This document shows, piece after piece, positions 1,685-63,419 of a stretch of 64,000 nt of DNA. Below the pieces are notes generated by a model, which saw only the letters and a program-made list of their open reading frames with translations, was not told the DNA's origin and made no database searches. The stretch is from Turnera subulata (Eukaryota > Streptophyta > Magnoliopsida > Malpighiales > Passifloraceae): contig JAKUCV010002376.1 of NCBI GenBank assembly GCA_028386065.3, positions 1 to 64,000 of the forward strand, read 5' to 3'. The first letter of the stretch is position 1. Each line of letters begins with the position of its first letter. Position numbers and translations under genes: made by a program.

Positions 1685-4600
1685 ATGGCTCCGAGAGGAA
1701 GACCCACCACCCGTAAAACCTCGATCCGATACATAGGCGTCAGGAAGAGATCGGGTGGCCGGTACGGCGCGGATATCCGCGACCCGGGAAAAAAAACCCG
1801 GGTCTGGCTTGGCACTTTTGACACTGCCGAGGAGGCCGCGCGTGCTTATGATGCGGCTTCTCGCGAGTTCCGCGGAGCCAAGGCCAAGACCAACTTCCCT
1901 GCGGTGACTGAGCGGAATCCTATCGCCAACGCCAAGACCCCACGGTTGAGGAGGAGGAGCAAAGGAAACCGCCGCTGGAAACGCGGGGGTGAGCTGCAGT
2001 GCCGTTTGTTTGAATTTCGCTTTCATAACAAAATCTAATTTTTGTATTAAAATTTGAATTGCCAATGTGCGTTGCTTAACAAGCTCGATAATTAGTTTTT
2101 GACTACGGCTTGTTACGTGCAGGTCGATCCCACAACGACTTGGCTCGGCCGTCGTCTGATATTGGTAAAACCGACCATGGTAGGTGCCTCAAGTCATCTC
2201 ATTAGCGTCCACTTGTTCTACTAGTTTGGTAGGAGGCTGAACTTAGTACGAATCCTTTCCTTGCAGCTATTACACGAGTAAATTGGCTTTTCTTTTTTTT
2301 TGTTTTAATTTGCAGATGATAGTTGCAGAACTGTAAAACGTCAACATCAAGTTGTCCGTGCAGTTAAACTTGGAGATACCCTGAAACGCTGCCAAAAAAG
2401 AGCTAGAAGTGGCGAAGACCACGAGAAACTGCAACTTCATAAAGTAAGGATTGGATTTGAACATGCTCACTCCCAAAGTACTATTTCTTGTTTGTTCTGT
2501 TTAACTGATATATCCGTTTGAATTATTCTCCCAGAAAAGCAAAGGTCTTATTCTACAAGAAAATGTGGAGTTGAAAAGCCTTGGATTTTCCCAAAATGCC
2601 TCATCACATGAAGAACGTTTCCATTCTGCCACTGTGGAAAGTAAGAGAGAGCATCCCAAGAACACTGAACAACGTTGTGTAAGTGTTGTTTTATTTGGGT
2701 TAACGAAATTACTAATTTATAATGATTACCAAGGTAGATGCTTCATATCAAGCGGAATTAAAGTTGGCAATCTGCTGTAACAGAAAATGAAAAGCATGGG
2801 ACCAGATGTGCTATTAACCCTTTTTTTTTTAAAAAATATATTTTTACTTTCTGCGTTTGTGTTTTTCTCCTCTGTTGTATGTGCATTAGCTCAGTCGTGC
2901 TTAGGTTATTGGATGAGGACCTTTTGCTCAAACATTTTCTTTTGTTCTTGCCGCTGGGAATTAATTTCTGTTTGATGCTTTCCTTTTATACCTAGTTATC
3001 TAATGTAAGTTTCTGTCTCATTTAGTTTTTCTATGAAAGTAGGTCAAAGAGATTTCTGCATTTAGCTACTAGCACTAGGTTGTTGCAGATGCCTCTTCCC
3101 TTTTTGGAGCTTTCTGCTTCAGAAAAGCTGGCTCACCCATTCTTTTCTTTCCAAGTAAACATTATGAACTTTAGTGATTCTTCAGTTTTGGTTGGTGATG
3201 TTCCTTTTGACAGAAAATGGTGCTTTATGCGGCTGACCTTGATCGAGATACAACAATACTTCAAAAGCTATTTCCCCACAGAGGTATTGAATTTTAACCT
3301 TTAATAATACTGCTCCTACTATAGAGAAATCTGACAAAATGTTTCATGCAATTTCAACTGGAATAGCTGGAAATGTTGTCTTGGTACTTCGTATGTAGTT
3401 TCTTCTTTCCTCTGATGCATTCCTCAAAATGCATTTCACTGATAACACCGTAGAAAGATATCCCCAGGTGTTTGACTACAATGGGAACCCCTAACTACAC
3501 CTTGTTCATATCTATACTCTGACTTAATGTGGTAGTCAATTGTCCAAAGATAATCACAGGCTCCAAAAGCATCATAGTGACAACACCTTTCTTCCTTCTC
3601 TGTCTCATTTCTTTTTTCTTTTCCTTGACCACACCACCTGGTCTAGATGTAGATGATGAGAGTTTGTGATGACTTGATCTAGATGCAAGATTCAAGGCTG
3701 TAGCCTATAGGTTTTAGGTTACCTTTTTTTTTTCTTTTTAATACTAGAAGAGCATCCTAGCGGGCCGCCAGGCTAATCTCTTCCCATGGCTTGATGCGTC
3801 GCCCTTGTGAGGCGGGACCACTAACAACAACACATTTTCCGTACACCTGCTCCCACATGAACTGAAACCTTAGACCTTGGGGTTCAAGGGAAATGCAGCA
3901 TGTTACCGCTGCACTCAATGCTAGTTAGTTCGGTTTTAGTTTTTTTTGCGTGTTGAAATCAATAACAATCTGGATCTAAAATGATTTTTCATGCATCACA
4001 TTTTTTGTAATATATTGGGTTCGTGTTGATACTTTGTGAAGTAATGTGGAGGATGCATCCTAGTTGATGTTGGAGGCAACTTGATAGCTTTTGTTATTTG
4101 TTTAAATTACAAAATGGAAAGTGTGATTGGAATATAATAAGTCAAGCACATATGCATTTTATTTGTTAGACCAGTGGTATATGCACGAGATTTCTCTGAA
4201 ATTTAGTGTTTGCAGCCTTCGTCACTTTAGCGTATGCAAATGAAAAACAACTCTTTGTGGTCGCGGTGTACGCTTTAAAGATTGTCAGTTGGTTTAAGGG
4301 AGATGCAGGACGCCTTACCACTACACCCAATGCTAGTTGGTTAGGTTTTAGGTTACCTGGCATGTTGAAATCAATAAACAATCCAGATCTAAAATGATTT
4401 TTCACGCATCACACTTTTTCTAACATATTGGGTTCATGTTGATACTTTGTGAAGTAATTTGTAGGATGCAGTGTTATTGATTTTGGAGGTGACTTGATAG
4501 CTTTTTTTTATTTGTTTAAATTACAAAATGGAAAGTGTGATTGGAATATATTAAGTCTGAGTACAGATGCACTTTTTTTGTTGCACCGGTGGTATATGCA

Positions 4601-7600
4601 CGAGATTTCTCTGAAATTTATTTTTTGCAGCCTTTATCACTTTATTGTATACAAGTGAAAATGAACTCTTTGTGGCCCCGGTGTACACTTTAAAGATTAC
4701 TGGGATGGATTGAGTCTTGCAGAGATGACTAATCTTTGGGAATGGAGACCTTGAATGAGCTACGGCCAGCTCCTAGCCTACCAAAAAGCCAATCAAAAGC
4801 TTTTTGTTAAGTATAAGTTTGTCAATAGCCAAAAGCAATTTATGAGTGAGAGCAAGTATATAAACAAAGGAGTCTTCTAGGGGCATTGTTGACTAAAATT
4901 TTTTAGCATGATAAATCAGAATCTTCCTTAGTTTGCTGAATTTGTACTAGTAAAACTTCTAACAGAAACCACTGTAAGGAAACTCCAGAGAGAGCCTAAA
5001 CATGTAATACTATAACAATGTAAGAGGAAACACTTGTCTTGTTTGATTCTGATTAGACCTAGTGAAGTTGGATTTCTATGAGCTTTCAGAAAGCTTCTTT
5101 GTCCGTGTCTATGGCTCATGTCATGAAGAATGTATTCTCTATTGTTGTTCTTTCTTAGACGTCATGCTAATGCACTGTTTTGGTATGCTGACAGTTTCTA
5201 TTTGTTGAATTACCGACTGTATAACTATTACTTCTATGATCTGAATGTCAATTAATTTCTATAACATTTGACTACCATGTTGCGTTCATTATTTTCTGTC
5301 CAGGTCAGCAATGCTCACATTCATTGATTTTGGGAGTAGTCCCTCAGATTTTTTTTTGAGGTGACCACTATTTTTCCCGTTACAGCTTAGTTAAAGCTGT
5401 TATTCATTTTCTTTTTTGGTCGAAACCGAGATAGTGTTATATTAATGTACCTCAAAACATGTACAAAACAGGGTTTAGCCCATGTGTCTCATATGCTCTT
5501 CCAAAACACTTTTAATACTATCAGGAGGTTGAGTAAGAATATTAGACACAAAAGAATTGTTGGGAGCCAATGAAGCCAAAAAGTGAGCCCTTTTGTTGGC
5601 CTCCCTATTTACAAAATTATTGGACCAAAAGTTATGTGCTTCTAACAAAACCCTAATGTCTTCAGCAATCTTCTCATAGTCTCCTTATTCGTATCCTCCA
5701 TGAGCCAGTGCACCAAAGCTTGTGCATCTGACTCCAAAACCAAAAGCTGCATATCTTATTCTGTGGCTAATTGTAAGCCCCTCCAGATAGCTAACAAATC
5801 AGCTGACCCTATTTATTTTCTGGCCAGAAAAAGAAGAAAATTTTGCATAATAGAATGATTTGACAAGAGGTGTATTTTTGTTTCTTTTAGTCTTTGAACA
5901 AGGACGTTCAAATTGGCGTGGGATGTTGGGAGTTACTGGGAGATTTGATCCCCTTGTTTTGTGGGCGGAGGTGAAGGACGCTTACAGCGTGGATTTAGTC
6001 TCATTCAGTGCTTTGCCTGTGAATAAACACATGGAGAAAGATGGATGGCATAGCAATTGTACGAAAAAGAAATTGGAGCGAGCTTTGGTAAACTTTCAAT
6101 GTCAAAATGCTGTATTGGAAGCAGAAATTGACCAAGTTAAATGTAGGCTTGGTAGCAATCAACATGTTTCTCAAGAATGTGTAAGTTTTCTACCTTCCCC
6201 TTTGAACTATGAATCTGAAAAATTATGTTGCAGGTTGATGGCTTGTTGGTTGTCCTGCTTGCTTCTCTTATTATATTTCTATTGTTTAGATGTCTATTGC
6301 GCTTTCTAGTTTCTGACCACTGATTACCAATCAGGATTAGTGTTTCATTATTTTAGCTGGTGGTCATGACCGTTGACTGATGGCTCCAGCAGTGTATGAA
6401 AGATATTAGTTGTTGTGGCTGTTCAAGGTTCATTATGTGTCAATGATCAACTATCATTTGCAAAGCACGATTAGTGTCTTATACTTTCTTTAATTGTATT
6501 AAAAAAATGAAAAGACTTACGTTTTGTGAAGTGTCAAGATAACTTTGTTTTTTTTTAATCACAAACATCCTCTCCTTCCATGCGCTGTATAGTCTGGGGA
6601 TTGGTAAATGTTCTGCAATAATTTTCTGTAGTGCATTTATGTCTTGAATTCGCAGGCGAAATTGGAGCAGAAGCCAGATATTTGTGGGACTCTCCCAGTC
6701 GACTGCATTGCGCACATCATCTCCTTTACATCCCCTCAGGATGTATGTCGATTGTCACTTGTTTGCCATGAATTTTGTGCGGCTGCAGGGATGGATGCTG
6801 TGTGGGAGAGATTTCTGCCATCTGATTATGACGATGACAATATTCTGCATACAAACTCTTTCTCATCGGCAAAGGAAAAGTTTGATAATCTTTGTCACAA
6901 ATCTGTCTTTCTAAATGACGGCTCCATGGTAAGCAATTTTCCTTTGATTCTGTTTGATTTGTTTTTTGTTACTGTTCTGCCCATGAAATCTCAATAAGGG
7001 AGATTATCAATTGTTTATTGTTAGACGGATGCTTCTTTTTTACTCTTGCTTCTCATTTCTGTCTCCTCTATTTTTTTTTGTTTTAAAATGATCTATTTTT
7101 CCACGATGCAGTCTTTTGTTGACAGACAGACCGGGAAAAAATGTTTGCTGATATGGGATTCTGAACTTAATAGATGGTTAGTACTCTAGTGTTCTATATT
7201 ATTTAGTCATGCGCATGATTCCATTTTCTTGATGAAGTTTTTACTTTTTGTTAAGCCATTGTGGTCTTAGTTAACATATTTTGGAAATTAATGGCAATTT
7301 TTTTTTTTTCTCAAGTGTCACGGGTGAACGGCTAAGTTTGGGTGTGAGTATGGTCGGGTTTGAGTGCAAAGTTCTGTCGCCTAAAACTACTTATGTTGCC
7401 TACCTTGTGTATAATTTGCTCGAATCCAGTTATGGTCCTGAGTTTACAGGGATAGAGTTATTTCGTCATGAAGGAACTGGTAGTAGAGGATTGGGCCATG
7501 TATTGCTGGAACCTCCAGAAGATATGGATGAAATGCCTCGGGAGAGACCTGATGGTTGGAAGGAGATGGTGATGGGCGAGTTCTTCAATGATTATGGAGA

Positions 7601-7724
7601 CTCTGGGGCTAGAATTGAGTGGCGTGTTTGGTTAGTTGATGATGAGCATAATATTTCCCCTATGATACATGGCTTTCTTTTGCGTGGAATTGAATTTAGA
7701 CCCAAGGTTGACGATTTTTCCTAA
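1685..7724 (+). CDS. Gene A: AP2/ERF-like domain + F-box + PP2 (Nictaba-like) lectin fusion, nine-exon model
   Basis: Exons by GT-AG inspection: 1685-2003, 2123-2179, 2316-2443, 2535-2678, 3214-3283, 5891-6180, 6656-6928, 7112-7176, 7316-7724. Phases agree throughout, giving 1755 nt and 584 aa. Residues 13-71 form an AP2/ERF-like domain ([30 protein letters not shown]), followed by an Arg/Lys-rich tail that could be a nuclear signal. Residues about 107-336 are novel; exon 6 (about 240-336) ends in a Leu/Gln coiled-coil-like segment. An F-box lies at about 349-395 ([12 protein letters not shown]...VCRLSLVC). The C-terminal PP2 domain (about 455-580) has [26 protein letters not shown] and GIEFRPK. 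By family knowledge an F-box recruits SCF ubiquitin ligase and PP2/Nictaba domains bind glycans; a nuclear role is inference. The 2.6-kb intron between exons 5 and 6 could instead separate two genes. The donor of exon 1 (gtttgt) and the acceptor of exon 9 (caag) are weak, so those edges are less sure. Confidence 0.65.
3708..3940 (-). mobile_element. SINE-like element in the gene A intron
   Basis: On the minus strand the element ends in an A-rich tail (T-rich at 3723-3740 on the plus strand) after about 200 nt. Its left flank is the 15-mer taggttttaggttac (3708-3722); the right flank here is decayed. The orthologous copy in gene B keeps both 15-bp flanks, which supports a target-site duplication. 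A possible degenerate pol III box lies near the right end. Family unknown. Confidence 0.45.
3886..4705 (+). repeat. Tandem duplication inside the long intron of gene A, period about 410 bp
   Basis: The stretch starting aaggg at 3886 recurs at 4296 with the same order of landmarks (the aatgctagtt motif, a poly-T, the aaattacaaaatgg segment, then ctttaaagatt). The first unit begins inside the SINE-like element, so the duplication is younger than the SINE. Gene B carries the same doubled structure (period 413 bp) and gene C has a single unit. Confidence 0.65.
5412..5810 (-). mobile_element. 5'-truncated LINE fragment (RNase H region) in the gene A intron
   Basis: A 399-bp insertion is absent from the equivalent introns of genes B and C, which read straight through. 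It is flanked by near-identical 10-mers attcattttc (5402-5411) and atttattttc (5811-5820), and starts with a T-run on the plus strand, the mark of a minus-strand poly-A tail. The minus strand translates to a decayed RNase H-like end ([14 protein letters not shown]) with several stops. It is a dead insertion specific to gene A. Confidence 0.65.
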
Positions 7725-8689: not shown

Positions 8690-11600
8690 CTATCCACTCT
8701 TATCATCCTCCAGTAGCTTTAAAATACCAGGAGGGGGAGGGTACAAAAAGGTAATACCAGGTTTAAAATTGGCTGCTAACAATGACAGTTGTGTAGCTAC
8801 AGAGTTGGCTTCACTCTGTACAAGGGCAAAAGATATACAAATAAAACGATGAAGCTCAGACAAAAAGGATGTTGCAATGATATCCAAGCAATCATCCTGA
8901 TGTGATATCTCTGAAGCCCATTCAATGCCCTCCTGTGCGCAAGACTCCACTTCCAGGTTAGGGATATTGAATTCCTTTGCAGCATGTAGTACATGTAGAC
9001 ACGCCCATCTACACGCCTGTGAATAAGAACAAGAACCTAAGTTGGCAACAAAGCCACCCATCCAATCCCCATTCCAGTTGCGCAAGACACCACCTATGCA
9101 CATTTGTTGATAAGGAACATCATCACGCACTGCAAAATTACACTTAACTCTACCCACATCCGGTGGTGACCAACATACCAAGCTGGACTGGATTGAGCTT
9201 TTACTCAGGCCACCTGCCTTAATGCCATGACATGCACGACTATAACTGCAAGTGGTGCCAATAATAGTTTGCACTGGATTGCAGACTGGCGCTTCATCAG
9301 GGTCAAAAAGACGTTGATTTCGCCACTTCCACAAAAGCCAACACGCAACCACAAAAATATAGGACCAATTCAAACCTTTAATATAAGCATCAGTTTTGCA
9401 GAGATTTTTTTTGATCCACAGAATGGGCTCAAGTATGAAGAAATCTTGAGGGATATGACTTCCTAGAAGGGCCAACGCAGATATCTTTTGCAAAGACACA
9501 GTCTCGCACCACATGTATAGATGATTCCACCCCCTAAAGGCAAGCATTACATGTAGGATCAGTGGTGATATGTCTCACCACTCGGAGATGGTTAGTCAGT
9601 AATCTATCATGAGCTAAGAGCCATAGAAAGGAACTTAATCTTCGTGGGCCTTTCCACTTTCATATTGCCTTCCACACCGCATCAGTGTTCTGCCCTGTAT
9701 CTTCCTCTAAGACATCATAAGCTGACTTTGTAGAGAAACATCCCTGAGAATCAGCTCTCCAAAGTGCAACATCCGAACCTTCCATTCCAGTTGGTGGAGA
9801 CATCAAGTCCAATGCCCCAATAGTCGCAGCCATCATAAAGGGATTTATGGTTTCCCAACGCCAATTGCCATCTGGAGTCACCATTTGCGCTACAGTCAAG
9901 TTCAGCATGGAGTCCGGAATGGGTGTGGTAGTTTGTTGTACCAGGGGTTCAAATCCATTGAGCCACCGGTCTCTCCAAAACAAAACAGAATTGCCATCCT
10001 TGATTTCCCATTCTAGACAATCCTTGAAACTAGGCCAAACAGCCCTTAAAGCACGCCATGTCCCTGACCCATCTTTGTGAACCCATTTGTTAGCCCACGC
10101 ATCAAGGGAGTTTAGATATTTCTTCCTAAAAATTCTGACCCACAATACTTCAGGCTGAGTGAGAATTTTCCAAATCAATTTCATCAAGCACGCATCGTTA
10201 CAATACCGTATTTTACGCAAACCAATACCACTACAATCTGTTGGTTCACACAATTTCTCCCAATTAATAAGGTGGATCCTGCGCTGTTAGTCGCAAGAGC
10301 CCCATACAAACTTGCGACAGATACTGTCCAATCTATCACATACCGAGCGAGGCAGTCGGACAGTTTGCATTGCGTAAACTGGGAGAGCAGCAATAACTGT
10401 CTTGGTAAGAATGATCCTGCCTGCCAAAGAGAGATGATTAGCTTTCCATCCATTCAATCTCTGTTGCGCACGGTCAATGATGAATGAATACGTTCCCTTC
10501 GTCACCCTTGAGTGAATAAGGGGCATGCCAAGATGTCTGCCCAGGTCACTAGTAAGCTTAAAACCAAACTCACCACTCAAAGTTGTCGCGGTCTCTTTTG
10601 ACATGTTATTTGAGAAACAGATAAGAGACTTCTCCTTGCTTACTTTCTGTCCAGATAGGAGGCAAAAATTGTCTAGGCAATCTGATACAATTCTCGCTTG
10701 TGATAAACTCTCCTCTGCAAAAAGTAATAAATCATCGGCGAAGAATAAGTGGGATACCTTCGGGCCACTCTTGCTCATTTTCATTGGGATCTAGTCTCGC
10801 CTTCTCACAGCTTGGTTAATAAGGTGACCCAATCTCTCCATGCACAAGACAAAGAGGTATGGAGATATTGGGTCGCCTTGTCTAATACCACGAGATGGAC
10901 GAAACGATGTATCTGCTGCTCTATTCCAGCACACTTGTAACCGGGATGTCGTGATGCATCTCATAATGATATCAATGAGTTTAGAATCAAAGCCCGCTAC
11001 CACCAAAGTATCCTGAATAAAGGACCAACGAAGTCGGTCGTAAGCCTTCTCCAGGTCTATTTTGATAGCCATCCAACCCGATTTCCCTTTCTTCTTCCTC
11101 ATCACATGCATAGCCTCCTGGGCTACAATTATATTATCTGAAATTAACCTGCCCGGAACGAAGCTACTTTGATTCGGTGCCACCAGTTCATGCAACAGAG
11201 GCTTCATTCGATTTACAATGATCTTTGTAATGACTTTATAAATTACATTACAAAGACCTATCGGATGGAATTGGGTTATTCTTTTGGGCTTCTCCAATTT
11301 GGGCAGTAGGACTATTAAGGTAGAATTTAGCCTTTCATCCCAAAACCCGGTTTCAAAAATCTGCTTGACTAGATCAAAAACTTTCGGGCCTACTGTCTCC
11401 CATTGAGACTGGTAAAATAAGGCATGAAGGCCATCTGGCCCTGGTGCCTTTAATGGGCCTAATTGAAACATACAACCCTTGACTTTCTCCATTGAAATCC
11501 GGCTATTCAAGATGTCCAGCCTCTCTTGACTTATTACGGGGAAATCATTCTGAATTGGAATAATAACACAAGAAGGCCCTTCCTCCATGAACAGTTTCTG

Positions 11601-12776
11601 GAAATATGCCGAAGCCAAATTCCTCAACTCGTTCTCCTCGGTGCACCAAGTTCCAGTATCACTTCTTAAGGCTTCAATGTGATTCTGCTTGCGGTGGATA
11701 ATAGTGGAGGTGTGGAAGAAGGCAGTATTCCGGTCCCCTTCTTGTATCCACTGGTTGCGAGATTTTTGCATCCAGAAAATTTCTTCCTGGAGCAAAACCC
11801 CATCTAATTCAGCCCTCAGTTCAATTTCAAGATTTGAAAGATAACGGGATGGTCTCCTCTCAAGGTAACGTTGGATCCCATCAATTCTAGCAAGGAGTCT
11901 TTTCTTTTTCATGTGGATATTTCTGAAAACCTCCTGGTTCCATTTTCTGGCCCGTGTTGTAAACTCTTGCACAGAATCGTAGAGATCCATAGAATTGTTC
12001 CAATTTTCAGAAACAAATTGGGGAAAATCTTGGTGTGTGAGCCAGGCCGCCTGGAATCTAAACGGGCGGTTAGCAATTGGTGGTGGTGATGAGCCATTAC
12101 GGATCAGGATCGGGCAATGATCTGATCCCACTCGTGGAAGATGGAGGACAGATGCCTCAGGGAACTGGGTGCACCAGACACTGTTGCAGAGGAATCTATC
12201 CAGTCGAGCTCTTTGAATACCGCTTTTCCAAGTAAATTTGCATCCCGCAAATCCCACATCCAATAGATTAGTTTTTAAGAGACAGTCAACAAAGAGAGAA
12301 TTCGCTTGCCCTGGTCTTCCTGAACGAGTTCTCCTTTCAGCCCCTTCCAGTACTGCATTAAAGTCCCCAGCCACTAACCAAGGTTCCTTGATTGTCTCAG
12401 CTAGTGCTTCCAAATTTCTCCAGAGGTAACGTCTCCAACTTTCTTTTGGACATCCATACACAACTGTGAACAGGAAGGAAGAACTATTTTCGTCCACTTT
12501 AATGTGCATGAATTGTGGGTGATTGAATAAAATTGAAACCTTGACTCTTGACTCATCCCAAAGGATCCAAATTCCCTCCGCAAATCCCCTTGCCTCAATA
12601 CGGTGAGAATTCGGAAATTGCAATTTGTGAATAATCTGATCAGCTTTCTTGCCACTAATTCGAGGTTCCAAGATAGCCAGAACTTCCGGTCGATGATCTC
12701 TTCTAAGTTGCTTGCATAGACGAGTAAATTTTCGTTTGCCAGCTCCCTGGCAATTCCAAGTGATTATAGGAATCAT
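8690..12776 (-). pseudogene. LINE 1 ORF2: endonuclease-reverse transcriptase-RNase H, interrupted
   Basis: From 12776 leftward the frame encodes an APE-type endonuclease (WNCQGAG, the LEPR glutamate, GDFNA, SDHCP), then reverse transcriptase (KAPGPDG, PIGLCNVIYK, KIDLEKAYDR, RGIRQGDPISPYLF). A TAG at 10791-10793 falls just before the FADDLLLF catalytic box (10784-10287). A TAA at 10287-10289, a TGA at 9660-9662 and a TAG at 9534-9536 follow in the same frame. The last part (9547-8690) is in another frame, so there is also a frameshift near 9500. The terminal RNase H-like domain is eroded: the usual first catalytic aspartate motif reads VKCNFAV. Endonuclease and most of RT are well kept. Confidence 0.88.
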
Positions 12777-12894
12777 AAAACTAATATGATCGTATGGATG
12801 CCAATACCTGGCTAAGAATCAATAACTCGAAAAAGTGGGAGCTCCCTCCATAGGAGCTACTTCCACTTCCATAGCCGATGCAGCTGGAAAAGCC

Positions 12895-14667
12895 TCAATG
12901 GCCTGTAACAACCAACGAGACAGGAAGCTTGCTTGAAACTCTTGCCTCTTGCCGTTCAATCACATGGGAATCCGGGTCGGGTGGTTTGGTACGATGGGGG
13001 GGGGGGGGGGGGGGGGGGAGGATGGTGGTGATTGAGGTAGAGGTGATAGACGAGGTGGAGGGGAATGAGATCCTTGAGGGGGCTTGATACGGAACTGGGG
13101 CATCAGACATGGCTTGGTCTTTAGGGAAAATTATTTTGTGGCAAGTCTCATCTAATGCAATCGCAGAATGATCTTTTCTCATTGGAAGGTCAGTGTTTGT
13201 TTTGCTGCGAAGGAGGATCTTGGGTTGGGCTGTTGTAGTGTTTGGTAATGGCGAAATTTTGGGAAATTGTTTTGCATCAGATATGGTTAACTGGGTTGTC
13301 TGGTTCGAGATCTCCTTGAGTGGATTCCTCTTGGGGTATGGTTTTAAGGGGTTCCGGGCCTGTTTAGAAGGTTGGGCCTTCCTATTGGTTGACATGGGTT
13401 TAACTGGTGTTTGGGCAGGTTTGGACTTGGGTTGGGCTTTTGAAGATGATGCTTGGGCTACAGGTGTCATAGGCACAGATCGTGAAGGAGATGATTCCCA
13501 CAGACAATTATCAGGCACAGTGACCAAAGATTGAAACCTATTACCTGATATTCCGGTGGAGGCAGAACGGGCAACCGGAGTTGCAGATTCAGTTGATCTC
13601 TTGGTCGGCTTTCGAGGACGCTTCGCGACAATCATCCATTCACCTACATCCTGCTCTTTTCCTATGCTTAGGCCATGGGATGGTGTAGGTGTAGTAAGTA
13701 AACTCCCAGATCCTATTGAGGTTGAAATAGGCAGAGCGGATACTGCGTCCCCTGAGGACTGAGCATTCCTGGAGTGGTTATGGGAAGAACAGAGGGCCGC
13801 TGAATGACCATATCTACCACAGGAGAAGCAGATCTGAGATATGCCTTCATACACCACTTTGAAGGATTCCCCATCCAATTTTACTCTCCCCTTTAGTGGT
13901 TTAGAAAGGTCAACTGAGACGGCAACCTTGGCAAATTTTGCTCGTGTTTGGCTTTCTGTCTTGATATCAATTCGAATTGTATTTCCAACCCTATTCCCCA
14001 ATGTTCGCAGTACCTGGGTGTGATATCTGTCCACTGGGACTCCTGGGAAACGAACCCACACAACGGCTTTATCCACCGACCCAGATTCAGCCCTGAAATT
14101 CTTGCACCATGGCTGGACACATAAAGCATGCCCATAAATTGCCCAAGGACCACCTGTCAAAGCATGAAGAAAATCACTGTTTTCCCAAAATCGGATAATG
14201 AAGAAGTTACTCTCAAGGTCTATAATGCGGAACGGTCCGGTTGGTTTCCACATCATCTGGATCTTCGATTGGAGAGACTTGTACCCAATTTCCCTTCCCA
14301 GGAGCTTAACAATTACTGCTTTTTCCCATGGTTTTTCCAGCCTCCTCTTGAAGCACTCAGACAAGACCACATTTTCCCCATCCTCATCCTCAATCACGGT
14401 GATGTCACCCTCCTCACATATGGGTTCTTCGTCTAGCACCCAAGGGTCATCATCGTTCAGATGGTAGGTGCCACCTGCAAGCTTGTCTTTATAGGAGATT
14501 CTAGAATCCTCCACTAAAACATCCCGGATCTGGGGTCCAGGGTCCTCCACTTCTTCATTCTCCTTCAGTCTCACTTTTTTCCCACTGTTTTCCTCTTCAG
14601 CTTGAGGAAGTTCTTTGTCATCAGTTGCAGATACTGGAGATAGACTTGATTGAGCACTGTTTGTCAT
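12895..14667 (-). CDS. LINE 1 ORF1: DUF4283 / CCHC zinc-knuckle protein
   Basis: An uninterrupted 590-aa frame reads leftward from 14667. The first 80 residues are acidic. A DUF4283-type domain follows (KLLGREIGYKSL..., FFIIRF, GGPWAI, VWVRFPGVPV), then a CCHC knuckle (CFSCGRYGHSAALC, about residues 284-297), then a low-complexity Pro/Ser/Lys tail. By family knowledge such proteins bind RNA in the LINE ribonucleoprotein. A run of 23 G (12996-13018) encodes a proline tract near the C-terminus; the frame there depends on its exact length. ORF2 starts about 120 bp further on. Confidence 0.85.
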   Translation of the reverse strand: MTNSAQSSLSPVSATDDKELPQAEEENSGKKVRLKENEEVEDPGPQIRDVLVEDSRISYKDKLAGGTYHLNDDDPWVLDEEPICEEGDITVIEDEDGENVVLSECFKRRLEKPWEKAVIVKLLGREIGYKSLQSKIQMMWKPTGPFRIIDLESNFFIIRFWENSDFLHALTGGPWAIYGHALCVQPWCKNFRAESGSVDKAVVWVRFPGVPVDRYHTQVLRTLGNRVGNTIRIDIKTESQTRAKFAKVAVSVDLSKPLKGRVKLDGESFKVVYEGISQICFSCGRYGHSAALCSSHNHSRNAQSSGDAVSALPISTSIGSGSLLTTPTPSHGLSIGKEQDVGEWMIVAKRPRKPTKRSTESATPVARSASTGISGNRFQSLVTVPDNCLWESSPSRSVPMTPVAQASSSKAQPKSKPAQTPVKPMSTNRKAQPSKQARNPLKPYPKRNPLKEISNQTTQLTISDAKQFPKISPLPNTTTAQPKILLRSKTNTDLPMRKDHSAIALDETCHKIIFPKDQAMSDAPVPYQAPSRISFPSTSSITSTSITTILPPPPPPPHRTKPPDPDSHVIERQEARVSSKLPVSLVVTGH

Positions 14668-14869
14668 GTGAGGCAGAGAGCGTTTGCTTTGTCTTTTTTT
14701 TTTTTCGGTTGTTTGCTTTGTAAATGTCTTTGTAAAGACAGTTTTCGGTGCTTGTTATCCAGTTACTTAAACGACCCTATAGGCTTTCGCTTTCACGTCT
14801 TTCTAAAATTGCAGTCATGGGAAAATCTTGGTTTATTTAATCATTAGGGACTCCCAAGTACAGGAATTC

Positions 14870-15622
14870 TCAAAAAGGAAAATAGAGGATGCTGATTGAA
14901 TGAGCAATAAGAGATCTTAGATCGAGCAGCTTGGGCGGAGGGGCATAAACCCAGTGCAGTGGGCATTGCCTACGCCTGGCTGCCTTAGATACCCAATCAG
15001 CTACACGATTGGCAGACCTGTTACAGTGGCTAAATACGAATTCTTTGTAGCAAGGCAAGTTTGGATATCAAAGATCAAGGCTCTCAGGCACAAGGTTCCT
15101 AATAGCTTTAACAGCAAGAATAGAATCTGTCTCAAAATGGACTTTCTGAAAGCCCCTAACAATGGCTAGTAGGACAGCTTTTCTGATAGCCACTGTCTCG
15201 GCTATTGCAGCAAAGGAGCATCTGATCACGAGCTCCAAGCCTTCAATCAACCTTCCGCTTGTATCCACAAAAGAGGCATCACAATTCATCTTAACTTCAT
15301 CAATGTCAGATGGTTCCCATCCATCATTCCCGGAGCTAGCTCTGTCCTCCGGAGGGAGCAGTTGCTCCATGAATGGCAACCTGTGACTTTGCCGATCCAG
15401 CAGATAATAATTCGCTCCAGCCAAGGTAGTTTGAGGAATGGGGATAGAGCTCCTGAGCACAAAAGAGTTTCGGGCTTCCCATATCTGCCAACATAATACT
15501 GAAGTCATGTAAAGAAAGAGTCGACAAGTGGTCATAGGCAGTACTTCCACCCAGTTCGCCCACCACTTTGCAAAACTGGGGAAGCCTATCTTTGAAGGTT
15601 TATAACGAAGTGATGAGTCCAA
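14870..15622 (-). pseudogene. LINE RNase H-like (RVT_3) relic
   Basis: Minus-strand reading from 15622 gives a LINE C-terminal segment (CWQIWEARNSF) and an RNase H-like domain with candidate acidic residues: Asp in MNCDASF, Glu in AETVAIRKA, Asp in FETDS, Asp in NRVADWV. One in-frame stop at about 15068 separates the last part (15058-14870). No poly-A tail or TSD is visible. The right edge is fused at about 15614-15625 to the intron sequence that follows exon 6 in genes A, B and C, so this piece truncated another PP2 family copy. Confidence 0.7.
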
Positions 15623-16330
15623 AAAATTATGTTGCAGGTTGATGGCCGTTGGTTGCCCCGCTTGCTTCTCTTATTATATTTCTCTTGTTTAGATATGTCT
15701 ATTGTGCTTTTCTAGTTTCTACCCACTGATTACCAATCAGTATTAGTGTTTCCTTATTTTAGCTGGTGAGCATGACCATTGACTGATGGTTTCCAGCAGT
15801 GTATGAAAGATATTAGTTGTTGTAGTTGTCCAATGTTCATTATGTGTCAATGATCTACTTTCATTTGCGAATCACGATTAGTGTCTCATACTTTCTTTAA
15901 TTGTATGAAAAACTTACATTTTTTTGAAGTGTCAAGATATGGATGTAATGCCTTGTGAGAGACCGGATGGTTGGAAGGAGATGGTGATGGGTGAGTACTT
16001 CAATGATTTTGGAGAGGATGGAGGAGCTAAAAGAATTGAATGGCGTGTTTGGTTAGGTGAGAATATACGTCGTGCTTCCGCGATCTTATATGGCTTCCTC
16101 TTACGTGGATTTGAATTTAGACCCAAGGTTGTCGATTTTTCCTTGCCTCTATGGTTACGTTTCTGGATGGAAGATTGCGTTCGGTTGTTGCCTAGTAGGA
16201 AGAGGTTGGTGCTTTCGTCGCTTTCTCCTGTTGTATTATTTCTCCTGTTGTATTATTTATCACTAGTCTCTCATCCCGCGTATTATGCGGGTTGCATTTG
16301 TTTAAATATAAGTATTTGTACCTCATTTAA
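15614..16330 (+). pseudogene. PP2 family pseudogene fragment 1 (intron + last exon, internal deletion)
   Basis: From about 15614 the sequence follows the intron after exon 6 of genes A-C. At 15929-15935 it jumps to the last PP2 exon ([20 protein letters not shown], then WRVWLGE and GFEFRPK). In gene B the two joined points lie near 53065 and 54116, and both carry aagata, so the deletion joined at about 6 bp of microhomology. The F-box exon and the start of PP2 are gone. The stop codon found in other copies is altered, so the frame runs on to 16334. Non-functional by inference. Confidence 0.8.
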
Positions 16331-16733
16331 ATAATTTTAAGTTTTTCACAATAAATATTATTATCTTTGTACCAATTGTAACATTTGTTATAGTGTTATA
16401 AATTATATTTTTTTCTTTTCACTATTGTTTTGGGCTTCCAATAATATGTTTTTCTTTTCACTATTGATTTGGGCTTCCAATAATATGTGAGCTGGTGACA
16501 TGCAACGACACTCAAGATGAATAAAAAGAGCTGACAGTAACAAGTAAAGGATTAAAGTATTTTTGATCACTGTACTTTTAAAAAACTCGAACCGATGAAC
16601 TAAAGCTTGGATTAGGATGTTTTTACCACCTGTCTAAGTAACAAATAAGATCTAAAATGTTATTTTATCGTTGGACAGTTAGCAAGACTTCGAGTCCTTA
16701 TTTTACCTTTTTGTTTATTCTTTCTTCTTTCAG

Positions 16734-18536: not shown

Positions 18537-21500
18537 TTACAGAGGTCTAATACATCTATTTTGGGCTATTCCCCTAATATCATAATTTAACCCCTCAAGG
18601 ATACACGAAGGGGGAAACAGAAAGGTTTCAGAGCTAAATAAATTACTGCATCCCAAATTAGCTAAAATATCAGCACACTTATTTGCTTCTCGATAAATAT
18701 GGCTAATAGCAACAGCCCAATTCCTACTAAGGAGAAGATGGATCCGACTCACAAGAGCAAGATTACCATTTCTCGGGGGTTCCGAACCCGAAATCAATTG
18801 TGTCACACTTTGGGAGTCCACCTCAAGTTCTATCTGTTTAAATCCCAATTCCCATGCCAACTCCAGCCTTAGTTTCACTGCCCAAAGCTCAGCCCTCAAA
18901 GCCGAACAGGTCCCAAGATTACGAGCAAAGCCACCCATAAACTTCCCACGGTCATCCCTTAACAATCCCCCAGCCCCAGCGATCCCGGGGTTACCCTTGG
19001 ATGCTCCATCCGTATTTAACTTCACAAGCCCCGCTTGAGGAGGCTTCCAAAACACCGGTATCTCCAATCTCCCAGCAAAGCCCAAGAGCTTCTCATTCAA
19101 GGTACGGGCAAATTGGATTTCCTCAACATAAGAGTGCACCATCGGCATCCGCAAGGCAATGTTTAAATCACCCTTAGCCCATCTATCATTTCTAGCCTTC
19201 CACAAAAGCCAGCAAGTCACACCAAATATCAACTCCCAATCCCGCATCGAATCAGCACTCCATTTATTTATTAAGTTCAGCTTGATCCAAGATGACAAAT
19301 CACAATTAAAGAATGAAAGAAAGGCTGACCTGTCCAGCAAAGCCTCCCATATCACACGAGCCTTGGGGCAGTCCCTCATGACATGTAAAGATGACTCTCG
19401 CAGATGGCAAGTAGTACAGCTAGAATCGGCTGCCAGGTGTCTACGGCATCTCTCATCATTAGTTAGAAGTTTATCATGGACCAAAAGCCATAAGAATGAT
19501 CGGATCCGTTGAGGACCTTTCCATTTCCACACAAGATTCCATAGGTCACAATCGTCAGCATTAGCATTATCAACAAGATCTTGATAAGCTGAATTAATAG
19601 TAAACATACCAGAGGGGGATGATTTCCATATCATTGTATCAAGGCCGGCTTCCGGATGAGGAGGGGAACAAGCCCGAATTTTCAATAAGATTTCTTCCGG
19701 CAGGAATTGTCTGAGGGACGTCCAATCCCAATCCCCATCAGCAGTAACATAGTCGCAGACTCTCTTGTTGAGTTCAGAGCTTCCGAGAAGAATCATAGAA
19801 TGGTTCAGAAGAGAGGATTCACCCTCTAACCAGCAATCAATCCAAAACTTTACAGAGAATCCGTTGCCAATAACCCATTGGATGCCCTCCAAGACTTGAC
19901 CCCATATTTTCTCGATTCCTTTCCAGAGATACGACTTTCTCCCTGATGGCTTAATGAACCAATCATCCCCGTTCTTCATAACATATTTTGCCACCAGAAC
20001 CTGAGACCAAAGGCTTTGTGATTGATTAATCATACCCCATGCAAGCTTCATGAGAAAGGCGTCATTTAGACTATCCATCTTACGTAGGCCTAGCCCACCA
20101 GCATTACGCGGACAACAAATGGCATCCCAACTCAACAAATGTATTTTTCGCTTTTCAGCGCAGCTCCCCCAAATGAAATCCCTACAACATTTCTCAATTT
20201 CTTTGCATATACCCAAAGGCAATCTAGACGACTGCATAGTGTAGATAGGGATGGATGAAAGGACAGATTTACATAAGGTAATGCGGCCGGCCAAGGAAAG
20301 ATTATTGGCCTTCCACGAGGATAATCTAGCTCTGATTTTGTCAACCGTACCCCAATATGTAGCCTTCATCACCCTTCCATGAACAATCGGCACACCAAGA
20401 TATCTACCCAGATTCTTAGTAAGAGAAATCCCACCAATTTCGACCAACCTCTCCCTCGTAACACTTCTGCCCTGATGCTTCACAAAAAGACTGCAAACAT
20501 CGCATCATTAATCTCATTTGGGATTCAGAGGCCTCCCCAAAAAGAAGAAGATCATCCGCAAACATCAAATGAGATAAGGTCGGCCCTCGTAAACTAAACC
20601 TGAATGGCTTCCATTTCCCCTCTTCAACTTCTTGCTGAATTAAATGAGATAATCGCTCCATGCAAATAACAAAGAGATAGGGTGATAATGGGTCTCCCTG
20701 TCTAACTCCCCGAGATGGTGAAAATTGGGAGGTAACAGCTCCATTCCAAAGTACTTGCATGGTAGATGAAGTAACACAATGCATGATAAGGTTGGTGATT
20801 TGGGCAGGAAATCCAACAAGGCATAAAGATGCAGCAAGAAAAGCCCAGCTAATACGATCATATGCCTTTTCTAAGTCAACCTTAATTGCCATATAATGTT
20901 TGCCAAGTTTATTCCCCTGCATGGAATGGATGGCTTCTTGGGCCACCACAATGTTGTCGACAATATGGCGGCCTGGCACAAAGCTACTTTGTTGAGGACT
21001 AATCAGAGTAGGGAGCAGTGATTTAATCTTGTTCACAAGTAGTTTAGCAATTACCTTATATACCACATTGCATAGTCCAATTGGCCGAAACTGTTCTATT
21101 CTCTCCGGTGTCTCCACTTTAGGAATAAGTACAAGATAAGTTGGGTTGTGTCCTTCGAGGGATTCAGACCCCTCAAATACCCTTCTCACAAAGCGGCAAA
21201 CATTTTGTCCCACAAGTTTCCACTGATTCTGAAAAAAGACTGCCTGAAACCCATCCGGGCCGGGGACTTTTAAAGGGCCAATGTCGAAGATAGCTCGTCG
21301 AATGTCTTCATCGGTAATCTCCTGACACATCTGCATTTTATCCCTCTCCCCAATCTGCGGAAATTGCATAATAGAGGTTCACTTGGGTCTAATGGCTACA
21401 TCTTCAGAGAACAAGCCTTGGTAATAACATGCCGCCATATTTTGCAGTTCCGCTTCCTCCCATACCCATTCGCCACTGCTGTTGCGTAAGCCCTCAATTT

Positions 21501-24624: not shown

Positions 24625-24851
24625 GCGCTAAGCCACGCGCTCTACTTTAAAGCAATTCAACCCGGATGTTCCAAACTTACGTTACTCAAAAAAAAAAAAT
24701 AATACAAATTTTATCCCATTTTCTCAGATCTATTTCCTTTTTCTTCTTTTTTCTACTCTCCTTTCACTTCACTCCTCTCTTATTCTTCTTCGATTCTATT
24801 TTTCCACTACAGAAAAACCTGGTTTCTTCTCTCCCTCTACCGCTCCTAAGC

Positions 24852-26074
24852 ATGGCGGATGACGATTTTTCTGATTCATCTCTTCTTTCCGCTCCTGGTC
24901 GACGCGTGACCAGAGCCTCCGCCGGCAAGCTTAAGGCGGAGGCGGAGGCTGGCGCCAGGCGAGGATCGAAGAAGAAAGACGCTCCAGCTGCAAGGCACGC
25001 CGTCAAGCAGCCGAATCCGTTAGTCATCAGATTGAAGTTGCGTGGAGAGTCTGAGGCTCGTGCAGAAGCGGAGAAGGCTCGTGCAGAAGCGGAGACGGCT
25101 CGTGCAGAAGCGGAAGAGAAAGAGGCCCGTGCACTAGCGGCAGAAAAGAAGGCGCGTGAGGCGGCAGAGAAGGAGGCGGCGCGTGTGGCTGCAGAGAAGG
25201 AGGAGGCGCGTGTGGCTGCAGAGAAGGAGGAGGCGCGTGTGGCTGCTGAGAAGGAGCCTGAATCCCCTCAATCAGGTCGTCGCCGGATCGAGAGAAAGTT
25301 GGACACGATTGTGAATAATTTGGGAATGGTTGGCCAGGACGTGAAGCATCTGTTTGAAGTTCTCAAGGTAAAACAATTTGAGGTTTTAATATCGTTAAGT
25401 TTTCACGGATCAATTTTTTATTGAATTGCCTTTGGTTTGCCGATTAATTAAATTGTTTATTATATTGGCATCCTGTTTGTTTTATAATGCCAAAATAATT
25501 ATTGTTTGGTTTCGATTTGATCAATCGTACTTGGGTGCAAATTAAGGTGTCAATTGTTTGTTTGTTAAGTGTCGGCGTTTCTCTGCATAGTTTGTGAACT
25601 GTGAATTGCAAATACATGAATAGAGTATTTGTCGCATCTGGTTGAAACCGAAAATCACATACGGTGCAAGTGATTTTCGTGCGGCAATTTTCTTTCAAAT
25701 ATAAATATATTTTATGATTTGGTTTGTGGTTTGAGGAATAACGCCACATCTGGATTGATAATAATCCAAGCCAGAATAGGAGCAACTTAGTTTAACTATT
25801 TTGGAATGGAAATGAGATATCGGATTTGCAGTGTAACAAAAAATATGTTTTGCTAATTGCTGCTGATATATATTTTTTTTAGATACACAAGTTCTATTAC
25901 CAATTTGATGATCCACTCTTGGGAGGGAGGGCTCTGAGTCGATTGGAGAAGGAGGGATATGGTGTCACTCTTAGTGACCTTGATCCTCGTTGCATCCTCC
26001 TGAGGGGGGATGTGGACAAGAAGGTCGTACACAGGATTGCAACGGAGAATAAAGGGGTTGCGGTCCGTCCTTAG
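24852..26074 (+). CDS. Gene D1: Ala/Glu-rich coiled-coil protein, two exons, function unknown
   Basis: Exon 1 24852-25367 ends at ctcaag|gtaaaa and exon 2 25883-26074 starts after ttttttttag; both edges are phase 0, giving 235 aa. The ATG at 24852 matches the start in D2; open frame upstream is only pyrimidine-rich leader. The N-terminus is Ser/Asp-rich (MADDDFSDSSLLSAPGRRVT), then basic. Residues about 70-140 are Ala/Glu/Arg/Lys repeats (units like EARVAAEK), likely a long charged helix or coiled coil. A conserved tail follows (RRIERKLDTIVNNLGMVGQD; exon 2 IHKFYYQFDDPLLGGRALS). I do not recognise the family. LINE 2 lies about 160 bp upstream of the ATG and has displaced the TATA-like region, so expression may be altered or lost. 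Confidence 0.7.
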
Positions 26075-26695: not shown

Positions 26696-26879
26696 GACGT
26701 TCTTATCCCTTTTGAAGGTGATAATATAAAAAAAAATAATACAAATTTTATCCCATTTTCTCAGATCTATTTCCTTTTTATTCTTTTTTCTACTCTCCTT
26801 TCACTTCACTCCTCTCTTATTCGAAATTTTTCCACTACAGAAAAACCTGGTTTCTTCTCTCCCTCTACCGCTCCTAAGC

Positions 26880-28099
26880 ATGGCGGATGACGATTTTTCT
26901 GATTCATCTCTTCTTTCCGCTCCTGGTCGACGCGTGACCAGAGCCTCCGCCGGCAAGCTTAAGGCGGAGGCGGAGGCTGGCGCCAGGCGAGGATTGAAGA
27001 AGAAAGACGCTCCAGTTGCAAGGCACGCCGTCAAGCAGCCGAATCCGTTAGTCATCAGATTGAAGTTGCGTGGAGAGTCTGACGCTCGTGCAGAAGCGGA
27101 GAAGGCTCGTGCAGAAGCGGAGACGGCTCGTGCAGAAGCAGAAGAGAAAGAGGCCCGTGCACTAGCGGCAGAAAAGAAGGCGCGTGAGGCGGCAGAAAAG
27201 AAGGCGCGTGTGGCTGCAGAGAAGGAGGAGGCGCGTGTGGCTGCCGAGAAGGAGGAGGCGCGTGTGGCTGCCGAAAAGGAGCCTGAATCCCCTCAATCAG
27301 GTCGTCGCCGGATCGAGAGAAAGTTGGACACGATTGTGAATAATTTGGGAATGGTTGGCCAGGACGTGAAGCATCTGTTTGAAGTTCTCAAGGTAAAACA
27401 ATTTGAGGTTTTAATATCGTTAAGTTTTCACGGATCAATTTTTTATTGAATTGCCTTTGGTTTGCCGATTAATTAAATTGTTTATTATATTGGCATCCTG
27501 TTTGTTTTATAATGCCAAAATAATTATAGTTTGGTTTCGATTTGATCAATCGTACTTGGGTGCAAATCAAGGTGTCAATTGTTTGTTTGTTAAGTGTCGG
27601 CGTTTCTCTGCATAATTTGTGAACTGTGAATTGCAAATACATGAATAGAGTATTTGTCGCATCTGGTTGAAACCGAAAATCACATACAGTGCAAGTGATT
27701 TTCGTGCGGCAATTTTCTTTCAAATATAAATATATTTTATGATTTGGTTTGTGGTTTGAGGAATAACGCCACATCTGGATTGATAATAATCCAAGCCAGA
27801 ATAGTAGCAACTTAGTTTAACTATTTTGGAATGGAAATGAGATATCGGATTTGCAGTGTAACAAAAAATATGTTTTGCTAATTGCTGCTGATATATATTT
27901 TTTTTAGATACACAAGTTCTATTACCAATTTGATGATCCACTCTTGGGAGGGAGGGCTCTGAGTCGATTGGAGAAGGAGGGATATGGTGTCACTCTTAGT
28001 GACCTTGATCCTCGTTGCATCCTCCTGAGGGGGGATGTGGACAAGAAGGTCGTACACAGGATTGCAACGGAGAATAAAGGGGTTGCGGTCCGTCCTTAG
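26880..28099 (+). CDS. Gene D2: Ala/Glu-rich coiled-coil protein, duplicate of D1
   Basis: Exons 26880-27392 and 27908-28099, both phase 0, give 234 aa, one codon shorter than D1. Differences are few: a Ser-to-Leu and an Ala-to-Val change near the basic N-terminal region, Glu-to-Asp at the start of the repeats, and loss of one residue in the EARVAAEK repeats. The exon 2 product and stop are the same as in D1. The 5' region is intact, so D2 is the likelier expressed copy. It is unrecognised, as for D1. The intron is about 515 bp and ends in a T-rich tract. Confidence 0.75.
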
Positions 28100-36703: not shown

Positions 36704-39700
36704 TCACTCGAAAGCTGAAAACAGGTGCGGATACTGAGAACGCATGTGCACTTCAACTTCCCACGTAGACTCGTTCACAGAGTGCTTGCTCCACTTAACC
36801 TTTACCATCGGTATGACTCGGTTTCTCAATTGTCTGACCTCTCGTGCAAGAATCTGTTCTGGCAACTCTATATACGTAAGATCCTCTGACACCTCAACAT
36901 CTGCTATACTAACCACATGGCTCGGATCTGATCTGTACCTCATCAACATGGAAACATGGAACACATCATGAATCCGTGACAACTCCTCTGGTAAGGACAA
37001 TCTGTACGCCAAGGGTCCAACCCTTTCCATGGTCTCGTACGGGCCGATGTACCTGGGACTCAACTTCCCTCTTTTCCTGAATCTGATATCACCCTTCCAA
37101 GGCGCAACTCGGAGGAAAACTCTTTCTCCCACCTGGTACTCCATCTCACGACGATGTTTGTCAGCATAACTCTTCTGTCGGTCCTGTGCTGCTCTCATAC
37201 TCTGCTTAACTACCTGAATCTTATCAACTATCTGCTTAACTAAATCTGGACCTACAATCAAATGGAGACCTTCTTCATCCCAACATACTGGACTTCGGCA
37301 CTTCCTTCCGTAAAGAGCTTCAAACGGTGGCATGCCAATACTGGAATGGAAACTGTTGTTGTAGGCGAACTCCGCTAAAGACAAATACTGATCGCAACTC
37401 CCACTGAAATTAAGAGCACAAGCCCTTAACATGTCCTCCAGTGTCTGAATAGTCCTCTCTAACTATCTGTCTGTCTGAGGATGAAATGCGGTACTGAAAC
37501 TCAGCTTCGTTCCCAAAGCTGCTTGCAGACTCTTCCAAAACCGCGATGTGAATCTCGGATCTCTGTCTGAGACTATAGACTTAGAGATTCCATGCAGTCT
37601 CACAATCTCTGCAACATATAGTCTCGCCAACTTGTCTAGGGTGTCTGTCTGTCGAATGGGAAGAAAATGAGCTGATTTTATAAGTCAGTCAACAATAACC
37701 CAGATGGCATCATGCTGTCTCCGAGTCAACGGTAGTCCGACCACAAAATCTATAGTGATCATCTCCCATTTCCACTCTGGCACAGTCATAGATCTCAACT
37801 TTCCCGCTGGAGCCTAATGCTCGGCTTTCACTTGCTGGCAGGTGATACATTTAGCAACATACTCGGCTACATCTTTCTTCATGTGCGGCCTCCAGAAATG
37901 ACTCCTCAAATTCTGATACATCTTGGTGCTTCCAGAGTGCATAGTATACGTCATCATATGCCCTTCCTCCAAGATCTGACTGCATAGGTCACCAACACTA
38001 GGTACACATAGGCGTTTCCCCAGCATCAATGCACTATCCTCAGCTTTGTGAAACTTGTCTTCTTTTCCACTGCGGACTGCTTCCTTCAGCTTGATCAAGT
38101 CGGGATCTCCATCTTGTAGTTCCACAATCCAGCCTCTCAGGTTAGACTTGACTTCAATATGGGTCAACAGGGCTCCTGTCTCATCCACTGACAAATCAAC
38201 TCCCATCTTCCTTAACTCAATAAGAGAGGATATCGAGTAGGTCGTGGAAGCATCTTCTGGTTGTCTCCGGCTCAAAGCATCTGCTACAACATTAGCTTTT
38301 CCAGGGTGATACTCAATAGTACAATCATAATCATTCAGCAACTCAACCCAACGTCTTTGTCGCAGGTTAAGTTCCTTCTGAGTCATGATGTACTTGAGAC
38401 TCTTATGATCTGTGAAAATCCGGCATCTCTCTCCGAACAGGTAATGTCGCCAAATCTTCAAAGCAAGCATCACTACGGCCATCTGTAGATCGTGTGTCGG
38501 ATATTTCTTCTCATGTGACCTCAACTGTCTCGAAGCATAAACAATCACTCGGCCCTCTTGCATCAGAACTGCTCCCAGACCAAGACCTGAAGCATCACAA
38601 AACAGCACATACTCCACTCTTGGCTTAGGTACTGTCAAGACTGGTGATGATGTCAACTTCTTCTTCAGTTCATCAAAACTCTTCTGGCAGGCATCACTCC
38701 ATACAAAGGCTTGATCTTTCCTCAATAGCTTGGTCATAGGACTGGCTTTCAAGGAAAAAGCCTCGATGAATCTTCGGTAATATCTTGCAAGGCCAAGAAA
38801 ACTTCTGACTTCGGGTACCGTCTTGGGTGGCTCCCATTCTAGAACAGTTTTCACTTTGGCAGGGTCAACCTTAATCCCATCCCCGGATACAACATGTACA
38901 AGGAATGCAACTTCCTTAAGCCAGAACTCACACTTACTGAACTTGGCATACAACTGTTTCTCTCGCAGCCTCTATAGTACTACCCTCAGGTGCTCTTCAT
39001 GTTCTTCCCTTCTCTTGGAGTATATCAGAATATCGTCGATGAAGACTACCACAAACTTGTCCAAGAACTCGTTCAGGACCAAGTGCATCAAGCACATGAA
39101 AACTGCAGGTGCATTGGTCAAGCCGAAAGGAACCACTGTGAACTCAAAATGACCATACCGAGTACGGAAGGCTGTCTTTGGTATGTCTTTCTCTGCAATC
39201 TTGACCTGATGGTAGCCAGACCGAAGATTAATCCTGGAAAATACAGTAGCTCCTTGTAACTGATCAAAGAGGTCATCAATCTTGGGAAGCGGGTACTTGT
39301 TCTTCACTGTCACTTTGTTCAGCTGTCGGTAGTCCACACACATTCGCAAACTGCCATCTTTATTCTTCACAATCAGCACTGGTGATCCCCAAGGTGATGT
39401 ACTAGGCCTAATGAATCCCTTCTAAAGCAGCTCATCTAACTGTTTCTTCAACTCTTGGAGTTTTGTCGGTGCCATCCGGTACGGTGCCATCAAGATAGGG
39501 GTCACTCCCAGCATCAGATCGATGGTGTACTCAACCTCCCTGTTAGGTGGCAATCCTGGCAGATCCTCTGGAAACATATCTGGAAACTCCCTCACAACTG
39601 TGATGTCCCCCAAGACTCGTGTCTGAACTTCTTCACCCTTGACATGAGTCAACAAAGCATCTGGACCATGCGGCTTCATCCCAAAATCTTGATTAGCAGA

Positions 39701-48140: not shown

Positions 48141-48145
48141 CCGTT

Positions 48146-63202: not shown

Positions 63203-63419
63203 AATGCCTCGGGAGAGACCGGATGGTTGGAAGGAGATGGTGATGGGTGAGTACTTCAATGATTTTGGAGACGATGGAGGAGCTAAAAAAATTGAATGGC
63301 GTGTTTGGTTAGGTGAGGCTGTACGTCGTGCTTCCGCGATGCTATATGGCTTCATCTTACGTGGATTTGAATTTAGACCCAAGGCTGTCAATTCTTCCTC
63401 ACCTATGGCTACGTTTCTG

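Follow-up and report, generated by a model that had tools for sequence, protein, structure and literature searches.

A predicted AP2/ERF–F-box–PP2 fusion gene and its amplified family in the genome of Turnera subulata

The window, i.e., the whole 64,000-nucleotide stretch of Turnera subulata DNA analysed here, carries three related genes on the plus strand, referred to as A, B and C. Gene A is composed of the following parts, all on the plus strand:

1685–1988, plus strand: exon 1, with the start codon, the AP2/ERF domain and a basic tail
2123–2179, plus strand: exon 2, linker
2316–2443, plus strand: exon 3, basic linker
2535–2678, plus strand: exon 4, linker; its counterparts in B and C are longer by 72 nt and stay in phase
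3214–3283, plus strand: exon 5, ending in the donor AGAG|gtattg
3284–5890, plus strand: intron 5, 2607 nt
5891–6180, plus strand: exon 6, a conserved region with no Pfam match
6656–6928, plus strand: exon 7, F-box
7112–7176, plus strand: exon 8, in which the PP2-like part begins
7316–7724, plus strand: exon 9, PP2 (profile positions 50–148) and stop codon

These nine exons join in phase into an open frame of 579 amino acids plus stop, and all eight introns are GT-AG. The in-phase join proposed in a preliminary description of this DNA thus stands, with its length corrected from 584 amino acids. The order of domains claimed there was borne out by three Pfam matches above the curated cut-offs, namely AP2 at residues 15–64 (2.4e-10), F-box-like at residues 343–384 (1.7e-8) and PP2 at residues 459–573 (4.6e-10), the latter covering only profile positions 50–148. 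The basic tail that follows the AP2 domain looks like a putative nuclear localisation signal. When predicted alone, the structure of exon 6 is a long helix of low confidence (mean pLDDT 51.1), and that of exon 9 is also of low confidence (mean pLDDT 52.7). Intron 5 contains a weak RNase H-like match on the minus strand (5475–5684), below the Pfam cut-off and located within approximately 400 nt that are absent from B and C, and its T-richness relative to intergenic DNA is not decisive. No Rfam match was obtained for the 64-kb window at the gathering thresholds, and no relatives were found in the viral and prokaryote contigs scanned.

The other two genes of the window and the partial copies associated with them are:

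49075–54322, plus strand: gene B, nine exons, 624 amino acids, no internal stop, intact
49075–49351, 49468–49524, 49646–49773, 49883–50098 and 50188–50257, plus strand: exons 1 to 5 of gene B
52419–52708, 53183–53533, 53695–53759 and 53902–54322, plus strand: exons 6 to 9 of gene B
58771–63402, plus strand: gene C, exon order as in A, exon 9 broken
15613–16574, plus strand: remnant, a piece of intron 6 adjoining the 3' part of exon 9 and the 3' flank
55861–56413, plus strand: duplicated 3' part of exon 9 and 3' flank
57211–57707, plus strand: duplicated 3' part of exon 9 and 3' flank

The exon order, phases and domains of gene A had been said to hold in both B and C. This applies to B in full and to exons 1–8 of C (58771–62854), in which order and phase are kept, but not to exon 9 of C, which has a frameshift or premature stop near 63196. 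Because of this lesion, of a GC donor at exon 1 and of the in-phase alternative donor, 15 nt upstream, that its exon 2 needs, gene C is probably broken. Gene C is also a mosaic, with a 5' half mostly closer to A and a 3' half mostly closer to B; the switch lies in intron 5, near position 4747 of A, and there are exceptions on both sides. The longer exon 4 of B and C (in B, 49883–50098) contains in-phase internal repeats, and exon 7 of B (53183–53533) contains 78 nt of in-phase PSDFD-type repeats. A retrotransposon RNase H-like open reading frame at 48100–48783 ends about 290 nt upstream of the gene B start codon, and the promoter of gene B may therefore be displaced.

The coding frame of exons 1–8 is free of stops in all three copies. 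Comparison of exons 2–8 between A, B and C (exons 1 and 9 left out, C taken with its shortened exon 2) revealed no indel that is not a multiple of three in 1027 (AB), 1009 (AC) and 1081 (BC) aligned bases. In the introns there are 32 such indels in 3315 aligned bases for AB, 24 in 2776 for AC and 21 in 2545 for BC, a rate at which 9.9, 8.7 and 8.9 would be expected in exons 2–8 (Poisson P of 4.9e-5, 1.6e-4 and 1.3e-4, respectively, for pairs that are not independent). Exon 1 has no frame-breaking indel, and exon 9 has none between A and B; AC and BC show two apiece there, owing to the damage in C. Among A, B and C, dN/dS is 0.09–0.15 for AP2, 0.64–0.65 for exons 2–5 pooled, 0.67–1.2 for exons 6–9 pooled and 0.3–1.5 for exons 3–9 taken singly, which indicates clear constraint on AP2 and no more than weak constraint on the remainder of the gene among copies this young. 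Pooled over the wider family described below by pairwise Nei-Gojobori comparison, dN/dS is 0.33 for AP2 (16 intact sequences), 0.65 for exon 4 (22), 0.55 for exons 6 and 7 (20) and 0.78 for exon 9 (15), values that are biased low because copies with stops or a truncated AP2 were left out; L024 was also omitted. Among the parts measured, AP2 is under the strongest constraint.

A search of the window's own genome assembly (518.7 Mb, 7125 contigs) with the exon 6–7 peptide of gene A gave at least 155 scored matches. At least 80 exon-6 places were defined from the matches listed, including A, B, C and two intron-free copies, and at least 38 of these 80 are preceded within 8 kb by a listed AP2 of the same orientation, where 0.09 would be expected by chance (80 x 8000 x 150 / (2 x 518.7 million)); the count uses 150 listed Pfam AP2 places and is a lower bound. 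Among the matches listed, AP2 lies downstream of exon 6 at nine of the 80 places, where it may belong to the next tandem copy, and on the opposite strand within 8 kb at none. Tblastn added AP2 at eight places (gene C, L015, L016, L020, L023, L028, L029 and L031), which brings the AP2-bearing total to at least 46 of 80, a figure that counts broken copies too. The 42 places with no AP2 among the matches listed are made up of these eight, L017, 27 without an AP2 call, and six that were read, i.e., both intron-free copies, L034, L035, L037 and L038, in which the stretches read show no AP2.

The 20 loci most similar to gene A, window genes and intron-free copies aside, were examined individually. 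An AP2 exon was found by tblastn upstream, in the same order and on the same strand, in 19 of them, as in the three window genes; the only one missing it, L017, lacks exons 1 and 2 and part of exon 3. The AP2 exon is truncated or broken in L016, L020, L024, L028, L029 and L031. A simple model, which asked for all nine exons with their splice sites and a frame free of internal stops, was passed by four of the 20, L014 (585 amino acids), L019 (583), L022 (579) and L023 (609). In L014 the donors chosen for exons 1 and 2 were displaced downstream or upstream, and in L023 a longer exon 4 was chosen; L015 and L018 are cut by a contig end. Together with A and B there are thus six complete open genes among those modelled. 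Matches above the Pfam cut-offs were obtained for AP2 (PF00847) in A, B, C, L014, L022 and L039, for the F-box (PF12937 and PF00646) in A, B, C, L014 and L022, and for PP2 (PF14299) in A, B, L014 and L022, in each case over profile positions 50–148. PP2 falls below the cut-off in the first piece of gene C exon 9 and in the intron-free copy.

Evidence on how these exons are spliced comes from the intron-free copies, which occur at two places with uninterrupted frames of 485 and 516 amino acids:

2780–4234, plus strand (coordinates of locus L009): intron-free copy L009, F-box–PP2 with open frame; its duplicate, L010, lies on the minus strand

L009 and L010 share their flanks and therefore go back to one event followed by duplication; the intron-free copy is possibly a working retrogene. 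Aligned with its multi-exon sister gene L034, L009 matches in blocks of about 80–98% nucleotide identity that cover the tail of exon 1 and exons 2–8, with the introns absent, among them the 1.66-kb counterpart of intron 5 and a 5'-UTR intron read in L034. At the exon 4–5 and exon 5–6 joints the donor runs straight into the acceptor, at the splice sites. Loss of introns with exons joined at splice sites is the signature of a spliced message. Exons 3 and 4 of L034 have extra stretches (approximately 80 and 50 nt) that are not in the intron-free copy and could represent insertions or additional introns. No exon 9 was recovered from the L034 stretch, and the intron-free copy has an exon-9 homologue after exon 8 in the same frame. 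Gene C contains an in-phase GT 15 nt past its lost donor, and the exon 1–2 joint of the intron-free copy suggests that its source gene used a donor corresponding to this GT. The direct evidence of splicing thus extends from the tail of exon 1 to exon 9 and concerns a relative devoid of AP2, as no AP2 was found in the 2.2 kb upstream of exon 1 in L034 and L036 or in the 2.0 kb upstream in L035. Because the intron-free copy belongs to this AP2-less clade, a splice between the AP2 exon and exon 2 is argued from homology: gene A aligns with L034 through the exon-1 tail, intron 1 and exon 2, and in gene A the AP2 domain and the exon-1 tail are located within one uninterrupted exon.

The AP2 domains were then compared with the DNA-contact residues of AtERF1, a list that reportedly goes back to Allen and colleagues in 1998. 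The numbering of R152, R162 and R170 follows PMC7593309. Of the 38 sequences compared, 22 belong to the window genes and the 20 loci examined individually; the other 16 come from 20 further stretches, four of which gave no motif. All nine contacts are kept in six of the 38 (L039, L040, L041, L045, L046 and L047). In A, B and C, the positions of R147, W154 and E160 are occupied by I, G and D, so that gene A keeps six of nine, and of the 35 sequences having a residue at W154, 29 carry a different one. L039 has homologues of exons 3–9 downstream of its AP2, and the other five full-contact sequences are linked to an exon 6 by position only. The DNA-binding label given in the preliminary description is hence plausible, judging from the residues, for the six sequences with nine contacts, and uncertain for A, B and C, with three of nine changed.

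The carbohydrate site of Nictaba is formed by W15, A40, W41, D148, K149 and W151 (PMC12355970). The PP2 part of the fusion matches Nictaba 8AD2 only from chain residue 49, in a chain numbering that looks one above that of the paper; this alignment retains the D, has E in place of the K and puts the W beside a gap. The part of the site with W15 and A40–W41 has no counterpart in the shortened PP2. The missing first third of PP2, which holds the main sugar-binding tryptophans, contradicts the glycan-binding label of the preliminary description, and a protein-binding rather than a sugar-binding role is expected.

The explanation that best accounts for these observations, and which is considered likely, is an amplified nine-exon family read as one transcript that encodes AP2, a basic tail, a linker, a helical segment, an F-box and a shortened PP2. 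As a gene model, the fusion is strongly supported on comparative grounds by the intron-free sister copy, by the shared order, splice sites and phase, and by the co-inheritance of AP2 and F-box; that it yields a fused transcript and protein is highly probable. The same locus could be read as two adjacent genes that were duplicated together, an ERF gene made of exons 1–5 or just of exon 1, followed by an F-box–PP2 gene with exons 6–9. In A and B the frame of exon 5 indeed continues to a stop that follows RGIEF, read-through of exon 1 into intron 1 also reaches a stop, ATG codons occur early in exon 6, and the 2607 nt of intron 5 in A follow a donor whose fit to the consensus is no better than fair. 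However, exons 4, 5 and 6 are joined in the intron-free copy, and homologues of earlier exons precede exon 6 even where AP2 was not detected (exons 2–5 in L034 and L035, exon 4 in L037 and L038). Moreover, the gap between exons 5 and 6 ranges from 634 to 3566 nt over the 17 AP2-bearing loci in which both exons were found and is only 634–656 nt in four of them, L016 (AP2 truncated), L018, L020 (AP2 frameshifted) and L021, which leaves little room for the end of one gene and the promoter of another. The phase-1 donor of exon 5 is present in 17 of these 17 loci and the exon-6 acceptor in 16 (the match in L025 sets in further inside exon 6), and phase is kept in L028, L030, L031 and L033 despite a changed end of exon 5. 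Distances between loci in AP2 and in exons 6–7 are correlated (r=0.89, 13 loci with L024 left out, 0 of 5000 permutations), largely because of two clades. An origin of the pattern in two separate genes is considered very improbable.

Another reading is that of a decaying and mostly non-functional family, amplified by tandem and transposon-assisted copying, whose fusion is transcribed at most as noise. Many copies are damaged, gene C is broken, fragments lie at 15.6, 55.9 and 57.2 kb in retrotransposon-rich surroundings and exon 9 is near-neutral, all of which fit with decay. The low dN/dS of AP2, both among A, B and C and in the pooled intact sequences, the lack of frame-breaking indels in exons 2–8 of the window genes and the six complete open genes make this reading unlikely. 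A third reading accepts the fused protein as an F-box adaptor in which AP2 is a protein-interaction module with no DNA binding, which also appears to be the case for the helix-turn-helix (HTH) of the nematode F-box A2 proteins. The changed contacts of A, B and C, the frequent replacement of W154 and the precedent of the nematode F-box–HTH family speak for it, the strong constraint on AP2 and the six sequences with all nine contacts speak against it, and it is regarded as a possibility short of an even chance.

The history of the family was approached with a tree built from 31 exon 6(+7) sequences, in which L037 and L038, the most divergent of them, served as the root. All AP2-bearing loci fall in one clade (support 0.865, in a tree whose deep supports are low, 0.118 and 0.299, and which includes L012 without an AP2 call). 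This clade also takes in L017, whose AP2 exon is missing, and L013, which has no AP2 call, and the AP2-less group of L034 and L035 lies outside it. No AP2 was found within approximately 5.7 kb upstream of exon 6 in L037 and L038, an absence that is not final since AP2 is located up to 7.3 kb from exon 6 in some loci. Because the intron-free copy derives from the AP2-less sister clade, a single addition of AP2 to a pre-existing long F-box–PP2 gene is probable, and one gain would also be simpler than two losses. In this scenario AP2 would have been placed upstream of the first coding exon of the older gene, and the combined gene would then have spread by tandem and dispersed duplication. The family would thus represent a case of domain gain at the level of an exon, followed by expansion to dozens of loci.

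Like AP2/ERF factors, the fused proteins contain an ERF-type domain, which we take to be close to ERF group VIII. Unlike in these factors, AP2 is here one exon of nine with an F-box downstream, whereas introns are absent from most AP2/ERF genes (PMC5318435). As in F-box–Nictaba proteins (F-box–PP2, PP2-B), the F-box is followed by a PP2/Nictaba-type domain, and exons 7–9 would match the three-exon layout reported for 19 of 26 citrus PP2 genes in PMC12966013. The fusion differs from F-box–Nictaba proteins in its six extra upstream exons and N-terminal AP2, and in a PP2 that lacks profile positions 1–49 and the W15/A40/W41 region of Nictaba. A further parallel is the Caenorhabditis F-box A2 family with its Mos1-type HTH, in which an F-box gene also captured a domain of DNA-binding type and underwent lineage-specific amplification, although fold, organism and C-terminal part are different. 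DNA binding by these F-box–HTH proteins was tested and not detected, and neither was nuclear localisation (PMC12062965). As the nearest precedent, this family calls for caution about a DNA-targeted role of the plant fusion. In agreement with the preliminary description, no protein combining AP2, F-box and PP2/Nictaba is described in the available text of the papers searched, lectin and F-box surveys included; such a protein may already be present, unremarked, in annotation.

The mechanism predicted from this architecture, that of a DNA-targeted ligase, is put forward tentatively. The fused protein would act as a nuclear SCF ubiquitin-ligase adaptor in which the F-box would recruit SKP1/Cullin, the helical segment and the PP2-like part, no longer a Nictaba-type lectin, would bind substrates, and the ERF module would guide the ligase towards promoter DNA or other factors. 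A DNA-binding domain and an SCF adaptor in one protein could place protein destruction at chosen promoters. The broader proposal, by which one ERF capture into an F-box–PP2 gene, in a single plant lineage, gave rise to dozens of promoter-targeted SCF ligases, some keeping GCC-box contacts and others, such as gene A, acquiring new specificities, with loss of the lectin function, is speculative and rather doubtful. The AP2-less relatives and the AP2 domains with full or altered contacts form a natural series, which makes the effect of the fusion directly testable.

The rest of the window contains transposable elements and a tandem duplication. The Ala/Glu-rich open reading frame of this duplication has no Pfam match in its first copy (24651–25424).

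8690–14754 and 18537–21378, minus strand: non-LTR retrotransposon open reading frames, matching endonuclease, reverse transcriptase, RNase H-like, zf-RVT and DUF4283
36704–38971, minus strand, and 44642–45139, plus strand: LTR-retrotransposon pieces, matching RNase H, integrase zinc domain, Tf2-1 SH3 and chromodomain
24651–25424 and 26730–27449: tandem duplication of approximately 2 kb with blocks 99% identical, containing the Ala/Glu-rich open reading frame
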